DNA of 53,528 nucleotides. It comes from Acidobacteriota bacterium (GTDB lineage Bacteria; Acidobacteriota; Terriglobia; Bryobacterales; Bryobacteraceae). Each line of letters begins with the position of its first letter. Position 1 is the stretch's first letter. The notes beneath the pieces were generated by a model. That model made no database searches. It had not been told where the DNA came from and saw only the letters and a list, made by a program, of their open reading frames with translations. Of the stretch, positions 45,314 through 48,102 are shown one piece after another. A program made the position numbers and the translations under genes. The DNA lies in contig QHXW01000211.1 in NCBI GenBank assembly GCA_003223115.1, positions 1-53,528 on the forward strand, read 5' to 3'.

Positions 45314-45346
45314 TTGAACGCTTCTGTACTATCTGTTATAGTACAG
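45314..45346 (+). promoter_or_regulatory. GntR operon promoter with perfect 9-bp operator
   Basis: TTGAAC (45314-45319) and TATAGT (45337-45342) are spaced by 17 bases. CTGTACTAT (45324-45332), CTGTT, ATAGTACAG (45338-45346) is a perfect inverted repeat covering spacer and -10, ideal for repression by the GntR product. The predicted start lies at about 45349-45350, on the GTG start codon. Confidence 0.75.
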
Positions 45347-45349
45347 GCG

Positions 45350-45757
45350 GTGACACCGTTTCGCGTTTCGTTTGAGCCTGGCGTGGCCCTTTACGAGCAG
45401 GTGGTCTATGCCGCCAAAAAGGCTGTCATCTCCGGCCAAATGCGCCCGGGCGAGACCTTTCCCTCCGTCCGCACTCTCAGCAAAGCCCTCAAAATCAACC
45501 CCAATACGGCACATAAAGTGATCACGCAACTCGTCTCCGAAGGATTGATCGAGGTGCATCCGGGACTGGGTACCATCGTCGCCGGGCGTCGGTCATCTAC
45601 CCCAGCCGAGCGGGGCAATTTGCTTAAGAAGGAACTCGAGCAACTTGTGGTGGAGGCCAAGAAACTCGGCTTGGATCTCTACCAGGTCACCAATGCGGTC
45701 ACACAGCACTGGGGCCGGCTTGACGGAAAGGACAAAGCAGCGAGGAGGAAAGAATGA
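45350..45757 (+). CDS. YtrA-subfamily GntR repressor
   Basis: GTG 45350 starts a 135-residue protein that aligns from its first residues to YtrA-type regulators: FRVSFEPGVALYEQVVYAAK, VISGQMRPGETFPSVRTLSK, INPNTAHKVITQLVSEGLIE and HPGLGTIVAGRR form the winged helix; the C-terminus is a short helical dimer arm (LEQLVVEAKKLGLDLYQVTN). A longer frame from 45278 would cross the promoter. These repressors control ABC transporter operons and respond to envelope stress or antibiotics. Stop overlaps the next ATG (ATGA). Confidence 0.85.
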   Translation: MTPFRVSFEPGVALYEQVVYAAKKAVISGQMRPGETFPSVRTLSKALKINPNTAHKVITQLVSEGLIEVHPGLGTIVAGRRSSTPAERGNLLKKELEQLVVEAKKLGLDLYQVTNAVTQHWGRLDGKDKAARRKE

Positions 45758-46659
45758 GCAGCGCCCTCTGTGCACAAGATCTCTTAAAACGCTTTCGCAA
45801 CGCGCCGGTACTTGACGGCCTGAATCTCGATGTCCCCGAGGCGAGCGTCTTTGGTCTCATCGGACCGAACGGCGCCGGAAAAACCACCACAATCAAGATC
45901 CTCATGAACATCATCAAAGCGACCTCTGGACGCGCCGAGGTGCTCGGCGTCGACTCGCGCCACCTCGGTCCGTCGGACCTCGAGCACATTGGGTACGTGT
46001 CTGAAAACCAGGAGATGCCCGAGTGGACGACAGTAGAGTACTTTCTCGCTTACCTGAAACCCTTCTACCCCACCTGGGACGAAACACGCGCCGAGGAACT
46101 CGTCCGTCAATTCAACCTTCCGCGTGGGCGGAAGCTGCGGCATCTTTCACGTGGCATGTGGATGAAGACGGCGCTGGCCTCCTCGCTGGCCTACCGTCCG
46201 AGCCTGCTGGTGTTGGACGAGCCCTTCGGCGGCCTCGATCCTTTGGTTCGCGAGGACCTGATTGAAGGCCTTTTGGAAAGCGCTGGCGAGACCACCATCC
46301 TCATCTCCTCGCATGACTTGGCCGACATCGAAAGCTTCGCCAGCCACATCGGCTATCTTGACCGTGGACGTTTGCAATTCTCCGAGGAGATGACATCGCT
46401 CACCGCGCGGTTTCGCGAAGTCGAAGTCACCGTCGAGCCGCCCGCGACCCTTCCCGCCGATCGCCAATGGCCTGCCAACTGGCTTCGCCCTGAAGCAACG
46501 CAGGCCTTGGTCCGCTTCGTCGAAACGCGCTTCGATCCGGAGCACACCACCGGCGAGATCCGCCGGCTATTCGGCAGAGTACAGCAAATTTCGGTGAATC
46601 CGATGCCGCTGCGGGCCATCTTCGTAGCGCTCGCGCGGAGCGCATCAAGGGCGGTGTGA
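45754..46659 (+). CDS. ABC transporter ATP-binding protein
   Basis: 301 residues with Walker A GPNGAGKTT (37-45), Q-loop region YVSENQEMPE, signature LSRGM (131-135, replacing LSGGQ), Walker B LLVLDEPFGGLD (151-162) and switch His in ISSHDLADIE. It belongs to the drug/lipid-exporter type of ATPases, with a regulatory C-terminal stretch. Translation is coupled to the GntR gene by a 4-base overlap; the permease starts 7 bases after it. Confidence 0.9.
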   Translation: MSSALCAQDLLKRFRNAPVLDGLNLDVPEASVFGLIGPNGAGKTTTIKILMNIIKATSGRAEVLGVDSRHLGPSDLEHIGYVSENQEMPEWTTVEYFLAYLKPFYPTWDETRAEELVRQFNLPRGRKLRHLSRGMWMKTALASSLAYRPSLLVLDEPFGGLDPLVREDLIEGLLESAGETTILISSHDLADIESFASHIGYLDRGRLQFSEEMTSLTARFREVEVTVEPPATLPADRQWPANWLRPEATQALVRFVETRFDPEHTTGEIRRLFGRVQQISVNPMPLRAIFVALARSASRAV

Positions 46660-46665
46660 AGGAGG

Positions 46666-48102
46666 ATGAACATGCGACAAACTTTGCATATTTTTGGGAA
46701 AGACGTCCGGTATCTCTGGCGCGAAATCTGCCTGGTACTGGCGCTTGATGCGATGTTCGCCTGGATCGAGACGCACTCACCCGACCCATGGTGGGCGGAA
46801 ATGCTTCTGACCGCCGCGGCAGGTTACCTGGTCGCTCGCCTAATCCACGCTGAAGCAATACCTGGCGACCGCCAGTTCTGGATTACGCGGCCATATCGCT
46901 GGAAGAGCCTACTCGGAGCCAAGCTCCTCTTCGTTCTCGTGTTCGTGAATCTGCCTATATTGATTGCTCAGTTGCTCATCCTGATGGTCAACGGATTTTC
47001 TCCCGTGTCTAACTTGCCCGGCCTTCTCTGGTCCCAAGTTCTGATGATAATCGTTGTATCCATTCCCATCGCCGCGCTTGCCGCCGTGACGTCTGGGATC
47101 GTTGCCTTTATCTTTCCGGCGCTGATCCTACTAGCGATCGGGTTTGGCAGTCTGGAAATGATATGGTTCCTGCACCTTCGGCAAGTGCTCGAGTGGCCAG
47201 TCCAGGTCGGATGGGTGCGGGATTCAGTTGCAGTTGTCCTCCTAGTCGCTACCGCGCTTTCCGTGCTCTATATACAGTACAGAAAACGCGGGACGCTCCT
47301 CAGTCGATCGTTAGCGCTTGGAGGAGCCGCACTCGGTGTGGCGGTGTACGTTTATATGCCGTGGTCGTTAGCATTCGCTGTGCAATCGCGGCTGTCGAAG
47401 CAGTCGTTCGATGGCTCATCGCTGCAGATCGGGCTCGATCCGAACGTGATGAAATTCCTCCCGCGGCCCATGCTGAAGCATGTCGAAGTGGATCTTTCCA
47501 TAGCAGTCAGCCGCGTTCCGGACGGCGTCGACCTTGAAGCCGATGCTCTCGCTGTCAGCTTCCAAGGGGCTAATGGCAGGACTTGGAAGTCGGGGGGCTA
47601 TGATCTCTCGACGCCGAACACAAACTCGCGTGGTCGCGGCGTGATCATTGTCCACGGGGCTGGTCTGATGGACTTGTCTTTTTTTAATGAAGAGCGCGCG
47701 AAACCGTTAAACGTTCAGGGCTCACTTTACCTCACTGTGTTCGGCAATCCGCGATCCCGAACCGTTTTGCTGCGAGAAACACCGACGAACGTGATGGACG
47801 GCTTGCAATGTTATACAGATATTTTCGGTGAGGTCCTCTGCCGCTCGGCGCTTCGTTGGCCCGGCCTGGTGGTGGACGTCAAAGTCGGAGGAACGGACAC
47901 CAAGTCCTTCACTCGGTTCATCTCTTATTCCCCATTTCCTGCCGACATGCATTTTAATCCCATTGAAACTGGCCGTGCCCTAGTTTCCACGCAATCCTCC
48001 CGCGAAGTGACATTCATTGCTAAAGAGCCGCTCGCGCATTTCCGTTTGGACTTCCAAGTCCGTGGCGTTAAGCTAGCCGAGTTCGCCGCCGCGGCGAAGT
48101 AA
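46666..48102 (+). CDS. ABC transporter membrane permease
   Basis: 478 residues. Six or so hydrophobic segments occupy residues 15-245 (LLTAAAGYLVARLI, LLFVLVFVNLPILIAQLLIL, VLMIIVVSIPIAALAAV, AFIFPALILLAIGFGSLEMI, VAVVLLVATALSVLYI, ALGVAVYVYMPW). A long soluble C-terminal domain of about 230 residues follows (VEVDLSIAVSRVPDGVDLEA, GSLYLTVFGNPRSRTVLLRE), probably outside the membrane. This shape is found in permeases of GntR-controlled ABC operons. What is moved is unknown. Confidence 0.8.
   Translation: MNMRQTLHIFGKDVRYLWREICLVLALDAMFAWIETHSPDPWWAEMLLTAAAGYLVARLIHAEAIPGDRQFWITRPYRWKSLLGAKLLFVLVFVNLPILIAQLLILMVNGFSPVSNLPGLLWSQVLMIIVVSIPIAALAAVTSGIVAFIFPALILLAIGFGSLEMIWFLHLRQVLEWPVQVGWVRDSVAVVLLVATALSVLYIQYRKRGTLLSRSLALGGAALGVAVYVYMPWSLAFAVQSRLSKQSFDGSSLQIGLDPNVMKFLPRPMLKHVEVDLSIAVSRVPDGVDLEADALAVSFQGANGRTWKSGGYDLSTPNTNSRGRGVIIVHGAGLMDLSFFNEERAKPLNVQGSLYLTVFGNPRSRTVLLRETPTNVMDGLQCYTDIFGEVLCRSALRWPGLVVDVKVGGTDTKSFTRFISYSPFPADMHFNPIETGRALVSTQSSREVTFIAKEPLAHFRLDFQVRGVKLAEFAAAAK

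Follow-up and report, generated by a model that had tools for sequence, protein, structure and literature searches.

The small gntR-type gene which begins at GTG 45350 in the DNA analysed here (53,528 nucleotides from an Acidobacteriota bacterium, hereafter referred to as the window) is preceded by a perfect palindrome ending only a few bases before its start codon. This raises the question of whether transcription and translation of the gene start at the same position and whether the encoded protein represses its own operon from this site. The features concerned are compiled in Table 1. The 23-base palindrome CTGTACTAT-CTGTT-ATAGTACAG at 45324-45346 is exact, so that the perfect 9-bp operator of the original prediction is found as described, and it covers the extended -10 region of the promoter TTGAAC-17-TATAGT. 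Within the window it is the sole match to the 23-base site at up to three mismatches, with 0.01 matches expected from shuffled sequences, and its inner 21 bases yield a single zero-mismatch match in the whole 9.14-Mb genome. The promoter, which had been termed near-consensus, is indeed present and overlapped by the operator, agreeing with 9 of 12 consensus bases and showing a TG in front of the -10 hexamer. Taken alone, however, this match does not exceed chance level, as two such sites are found in 4 kb compared to 1.2 expected. Hence, it is the comparative evidence described below rather than its own score which renders the promoter of the window convincing. Seven bases (45343-45349) separate the -10 hexamer from GTG 45350, and the first T of TATAGT is located at position -13 with respect to the start codon, in keeping with the TANNNT motif about 12 bases upstream by which leaderless genes are recognised.

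Table 1. Features of the putative repressor-transporter operon and its promoter (window coordinates; the loci counted are described in the text)
Feature	Position	Strand	Basis or remark
-35 element TTGAAC	45314..45319	+	hexamer 15-19 bases 5' of the -10 matches TTGACA at at least 4 positions in 53/80 loci
Candidate operator of the YtrA-type repressor, CTGTACTAT-CTGTT-ATAGTACAG	45324..45346	+	TGTACTA-N7-TAGTACA in 80/80 loci, 0-4 mismatches
Extended -10 TGTTATAGT, within the operator	45334..45342	+	TG in 59/80 loci; bases asymmetric to the palindrome
-10 hexamer TATAGT	45337-45342	+	17 bases after TTGAAC, TG in front
Predicted transcription start	45349..45350 (45350 or one base earlier)	+	inferred from the distance to the -10; canonical +1 is the first base of the start codon in 62/80 loci
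YtrA-type GntR repressor gene	45350..45757	+	135 aa, GTG start, no leader predicted
ABC transporter ATP-binding protein gene	45754..46659	+	ATG overlaps the repressor stop (ATGA); strong SD AGGAGG
ABC permease gene	46666..48102	+	478 aa, no Pfam match; membrane part loosely NosDFY-chain-like, C-terminal beta domain

Relatives of the repressor were gathered by a protein scan of named genome contigs and, since this search used the protein only, the DNA upstream of the genes was not selected. From 116 relatives 80 were taken; L048, located at a contig end, was left out, and the 80 loci counted in the following consist of the window and 79 relatives. The 80 repressor-locus sequences form 79 clusters at 90% identity, but due to the kinship among the relatives the locus counts do not represent independent events. 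Most of the relatives belong to the Acidobacteriota, while eight records are labelled otherwise, namely FCPU426 (L064, L075), Opitutaceae (L074, L079), Longimicrobiaceae (L065), Acidimicrobiia (L078), Deltaproteobacteria (L082) and Gemmatimonas (L084); in the order given, the distances between operator and start codon in these loci amount to 3, 3, 2, 2, 2, 1, 3 and 4 bases. As L082 is identical over the compared 120 bases to L126, a genome assigned to the phylum of the window by a phylum search, the record labels have to be taken with care.

In every one of the 80 loci the operator pattern TGTACTA-N7-TAGTACA is present in the 60 nt preceding the homologous start, the best match containing no mismatch in 27, one in 34, two in 15, three in three and four in a single locus. 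A long palindrome with outlying GT/AC, which is a trait of the YtrA subfamily, thus accompanies the gene throughout, at 0-4 mismatches. In 62 of the 80 loci the operator is separated from the start codon by three bases, in six, including the window, by four, in five by one or two and in four (L038, L041, L066 and L072, which may carry short leaders) by five or six. Altogether, 77 loci show a gap of one to six bases, and gaps of 10, 14 and 19 bases are found in one locus each. Inspection of the sequence with the 19-base gap (L070) reveals a second TATAGT six bases 5' of the GTG, which indicates that the promoter register is preserved there as well. Overlapping double operator-like sites, the nearer TATAGT being placed six bases before the GTG, are seen at L070:2961-3000 and, on the reverse complement, in L109 from 1440. 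A further set of 45 near loci included 20 identical to the 80 named ones, which were not recounted; L101 (contig end) was omitted. Among the 25 further near relatives not identical to the 80, the three-base gap recurs in 17, and four (L111, L113, L114 and L132) match the operator poorly with five to six mismatches, L113 and L114 nevertheless keeping the three-base gap.

At its N-terminus the encoded protein contains a GntR winged helix (PF00392, 47.9 bits at a cut-off of 27). Solved relatives are small GntR proteins, i.e. 3tqn, 4ham, 3by6, 2du9/2ek5 from C. glutamicum and 6sbs, the YtrA of Sulfolobus. In the predicted structure (pLDDT 85.5) the winged helix is followed by C-terminal helices at residues 85-105 and 110-124 as well as by a low-confidence helix at 127-132, and comparison with 4ham gives a TM-score of 0.79, a Z-score of 14.9 and an rmsd of 2.5 with 128 residues aligned. 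According to the model, the protein would therefore possess a short two-helix C-terminal domain in place of a larger effector domain, as is characteristic of YtrA proteins. The YtrA-type identity originally proposed is supported by these solved relatives, by the two-helix C-terminal model and by an ABC ATPase gene which follows in the same orientation in 75 of the 80 named loci. PmtR, the regulator of PSM export (NCBIfam NF047563), was considered as well and rejected, the score of 40.6 bits falling far short of the curated cut-off of 200. More distant YtrA paralogues from the same phylum (about 30-38% identity, 12 loci, L133-L144) have different operators; judged by eye, an SD-like GGAGG can be made out in front of the start in L134, L135 and L138, which sets them apart from the present group, while L136 perhaps lacks it.

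No ATPase hit is obtained downstream in the named loci L021, L060, L062, L069 and L070, and some contigs end early. A permease hit is present in 63 of the 80 named loci, that of L083 being located on the other strand. The permease model (pLDDT 87) consists of a membrane part and a beta domain, whose residues C382 and C392 are invariant in 31 aligned sequences including that of the window. A Foldseek search with this model returned its best E-values for beta proteins, with TM-scores near 0.1, and chains of NosDFY at a probability of 0.98-1.00 with TM-scores of 0.26-0.46. The membrane part hence appears to resemble, if loosely, a chain of NosDFY, which we take to be NosY.

For the analysis of the promoter register, the 62 loci with the three-base gap were aligned on the start codon. 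While the operator columns are thereby aligned by construction, this applies neither to the -35 element nor to the random upstream part nor to those promoter bases which reside in the operator spacer. Columns -75 to -47 contain only about 0-0.1 bit, and an A-rich stretch is found near -46 to -41. Conserved, in contrast, are TTG at -35 to -33 (0.81, 0.69, 0.61), TG at -15/-14 (0.79, 0.92), A at -11 (0.90) and T at -7 (0.94). Since these columns fit the sigma-70 numbering, the first base of the start codon should correspond to +1. A -10 hexamer occupies positions -12 to -7 in 62 of the 80 loci; its first T is present in just 25 of 80, and in 27 of 80 the -35 element matches TTGACA at three positions or fewer. 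Within the palindrome the conservation is clearly asymmetric: A-11 occurs in 70 of the 80 loci compared to 38 for the mirror base, the TG of the operator is conserved with no mirrored counterpart, and position -8 drifts towards the -10 consensus (A in 26 loci, versus 8 at the mirror position). Such asymmetric bases inside the operator are predicted by a promoter and not by a repressor bound to a symmetric site. In 54 of the 62 loci a pyrimidine occupies -1, whereas the purine at +1 follows from the identity of the start codon. In the window itself the gap between operator and start codon, four bases, deviates from the commonest value of three, and the base at -1 is a G.

That GTG 45350 is the start codon, as claimed from the outset, is corroborated by the near invariance of P3 and F4 in 44 aligned sequences (trimmed to the aligned start, which makes M1 present by construction) and by the finding that in the aligned loci no conserved codons are detected in the DNA upstream of the promoter. 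The third codon positions are variable from codon 2 onward; hence, coding constraint becomes visible immediately after the start codon. The repressor genes of the 80 loci start with GTG in 58, ATG in 20, TTG in one and GCG in one case (L063). For the ATPase, whose start was defined as the in-frame start codon closest to the aligned one, ATG is found in 70, GTG in four and TTG in one of 75 loci; these comprise the window and 74 others, L078 (partial match) and the five loci devoid of an ATPase hit being left out. An SD core, i.e. AGGA, GGAG or GAGG between -20 and -5, is found in front of the repressor gene in a single one of the 80 loci; for the ATPase genes of these operons the figure is 66 of 75, and for 1620 random 16-mers taken from the loci 11.7%. 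In the window no SD core is found at -20 to -5 of the repressor gene, and the next gene shows AGGAGG in this region. The supposed lack of room for a ribosome site is thus borne out for the window as well as, with respect to the SD core, for 79 of the 80 loci. Together with the +1 of the promoter register coinciding with the start codon in 62 of 80 loci, this speaks, at the level of sequence, in favour of the leaderless start that had been postulated. A downstream SD-led start was rejected, since within the first 30 codons none of the 80 loci contains an in-frame start with a strong SD.

Position, spacing and the contrast in SD sequences at the start codon make it very probable, in our judgement, that in the window a YtrA-type repressor and an ABC exporter form a leaderless, self-repressed operon. 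The comparison of sequences lends good support to the operator, the promoter register, the start codon, the absence of an SD and the operon structure, while the position of the operator suggests autoregulation. In this operon, sigma-70 RNA polymerase would bind to TTGAAC-17-TGTTATAGT and start at G45350 or one base earlier, giving rise to an mRNA which presumably begins with the GUG or one base before it and leaves the first gene without a ribosome site. The 135-aa repressor would occupy the 23-base operator over the -10 region as a dimer, and to judge from this position bound repressor and polymerase should be mutually exclusive. A signal would then free the repressor from the operator and allow the operon to be transcribed; for cell-wall antibiotics, the inducers suggested in the original prediction, the family name is the one pointer. 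As the repressor would probably be made slowly from the leaderless GUG and the ATPase fast from its AGGAGG, one and the same message may yield much transporter and little repressor, an outcome for which acuR-acuI-dddL provides an experimental precedent.

Were transcription to start further upstream, the operator would be part of a 5' leader and translation would begin either at GTG 45350, from an unstructured or S1-dependent site, or for example at ATG 45278. The frame of the window does stay open upstream, a point missing from the original prediction, with in-frame TTG at -36, GTG at -69 and ATG at -72 (45278), and other in-frame starts upstream of the gene are present in 50 of the 80 loci including the window. 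Yet the remaining 30 loci contain none, an SD core precedes one in only five of the 50, and none of those in the window is preceded by an SD core. Comparison therefore does not favour an upstream TTG, GTG or ATG as the conserved start; this includes ATG 45278, which would give the longest open reading frame, since the DNA upstream shows no codon conservation and this ATG has no SD core in front of it. Furthermore, the 62 loci with the three-base gap are conserved in the register from promoter to start codon but not upstream of -46, so that a leadered gene appears quite improbable. Rather unlikely, in our estimation, is a very short leader of about three to seven bases, originating from a start at a purine just past the -10 hexamer such as A45345 or G45346. 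The seven bases between -10 hexamer and GTG in the window, one above the commonest case, would accommodate it, as would the gaps of five to six bases in the four loci named above. The canonical start distance and the predominance of pyrimidines at -1 (54 of 62 loci) nonetheless favour the start codon, the G at -1 of the window notwithstanding. Messages with very short leaders behave much like leaderless ones, and for this reason such a start overlaps in practice with the leaderless reading.

It is also conceivable, though highly improbable, that the palindrome serves a regulator other than the encoded GntR protein, a reading compatible with a leaderless gene. A scan of 150 genomes of the family allowing one mismatch yields 48 sites in 38 genomes; counted by hand, 19 of them adjoin a repressor match and, in favour of this reading, 29 do not, but a reversed control pattern is at least as frequent, and a regulon can consequently not be drawn from the pattern. 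A recurrent form in these genomes, TGTACGA...TAGTACA, looks like shared coding sequence. Against another regulator stands that the operator accompanies this particular repressor in 80 of 80 loci, and long GT/AC palindromes in front of an ABC operon are described as the rule for the YtrA subfamily in PMC4494728. A match at up to two mismatches is present at the repressor start in 76 of the 80 loci, and the 80 named loci, 472 kb in total, contain only three further sites of this quality away from it. One of these, likewise arguing against a foreign regulator, is a second perfect operator in L083 (2920-2940) which faces a divergent transporter gene. It begins 75 bases upstream of the repressor start in opposite orientation and is accompanied by TTGAAG-17-CATAGT, followed, with the spacing determined by eye, by the ATG of the divergent permease four bases after the operator. 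A gene which does not encode a regulator thus has the same, apparently leaderless cassette. The genome of the window itself harbours a second repressor-like copy (L115:1342-1623, contig C569) with the same GTG and a three-base gap, whose frame is shifted near codon 76; this may reflect either a decaying copy or a sequencing error.

Returning to the leaderless, self-repressed operon, one extension of it seems to us to have a slim chance of being correct, namely that the leaderless GUG itself acts as a sensor by which the ratio of repressor to transporter follows the condition of the ribosomes. Leaderless mRNAs engage intact 70S ribosomes, and their response to stress directed at the ribosome is not that of SD-led mRNAs. 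If this applied, the operon could answer compounds which block translation without a ligand of the repressor, a protein with no obvious effector domain, and the preference for GTG (58 of 80 repressor genes versus 4 of 75 ATPase genes) would represent a tuned set-point. Outside the locus the leaderless signal is faint: in 287 kb of the genome of the window TANNNT at -14 to -12 precedes 8 of 176 starts of longest open reading frames, a weak excess, and most genes look SD-led. Among 287 other genes in the loci of the relatives the excess is weak as well. Leaderless genes are predicted at 9.7-19.4% in all three Acidobacteria genomes covered by PMC3160421.

Compared to known systems, the operon conforms to the YtrA subfamily, including YtrA of Bacillus subtilis, in its small winged helix, two-helix C-terminal domain and long GT/AC palindrome, and in the ABC-transporter genes which share an operon with the regulator; in the subfamily, typically one operator precedes one such operon. 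The survey of Suvorova et al. 2015 (PMC4494728) describes 229 YtrA proteins with regulons consisting mostly of single ABC operons with single sites; its Table 2 has no row for Acidobacteria and its main text does not mention them, while the abstract refers to an analysis of site positions for FadR and HutC only. The sites of B. subtilis YtrA are described in PMC4730234 as inverted repeats 13 bp apart. A literature search, mostly of freely accessible papers, retrieved no account of a bacterial YtrA gene being leaderless; on leaderless YtrA-type GntR genes it yielded PMC9145765 and PMC11998424 alone, in neither of which a leaderless gene of the YtrA subfamily was seen to be reported. These two describe GntR-type repressors of Actinobacteria, AnsR (PMC9145765) and PenR (PMC11998424), which likewise head operons with leaderless mRNA, mapped by RACE in the case of AnsR and predicted, with a palindrome within the -10 region, in that of PenR. 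AnsR differs in belonging to the FadR subfamily and in having its site downstream of the start, where it acts as a roadblock, and both operons are catabolic, unlike the transporter operon studied here. YtrA of Sulfolobus acidocaldarius (PMC6746942), again a YtrA-type protein, represses its own operon and one further target from a site which covers the transcription start; there, however, the promoter is archaeal, the site consists of a 14-bp core with flanking half sites, and a membrane protein gene takes the place of the ABC pair.

The closest parallel in design, not in homology, is offered by acuR-acuI-dddL of Rhodobacter sphaeroides (PMC3017554), a self-repressed operon with the repressor gene in first position and an inverted-repeat operator over the promoter region. 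Its transcript starts exactly at the AUG, SD sequences are present on the downstream genes only, and a fusion to the repressor gene yields about 7.5% of what is obtained for the second gene; the arrangement is reported there to occur in diverse bacteria. All elements of this design, i.e. a first repressor gene devoid of an SD, an SD-led next gene and an operator over the promoter, recur in the operon described here. The two systems differ in that AcuR is a TetR-family repressor with acrylate as inducer and an ATG start, the change of which to GTG much reduced expression (PMC3017554), whereas here a GntR/YtrA protein is combined with an ABC exporter and a GTG start in 58 of 80 loci. As far as the sequence comparison can tell, the arrangement is thus well supported as real and well conserved, and its design is already known from acuR-acuI-dddL. 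What the present family adds is a clear example, drawn from comparison, of promoter, operator and start codon being held in one register while the upstream DNA became random, in a host phylum for which few genetic tools are available. It also provides a start-site rule for the re-annotation of these regulators, i.e. a GTG or ATG three bases after TAGTACA, as observed in 62 of 80 loci. The YtrA subfamily would, in addition, join those repressors which seem to use leaderless starts to stay scarce relative to the genes they control.
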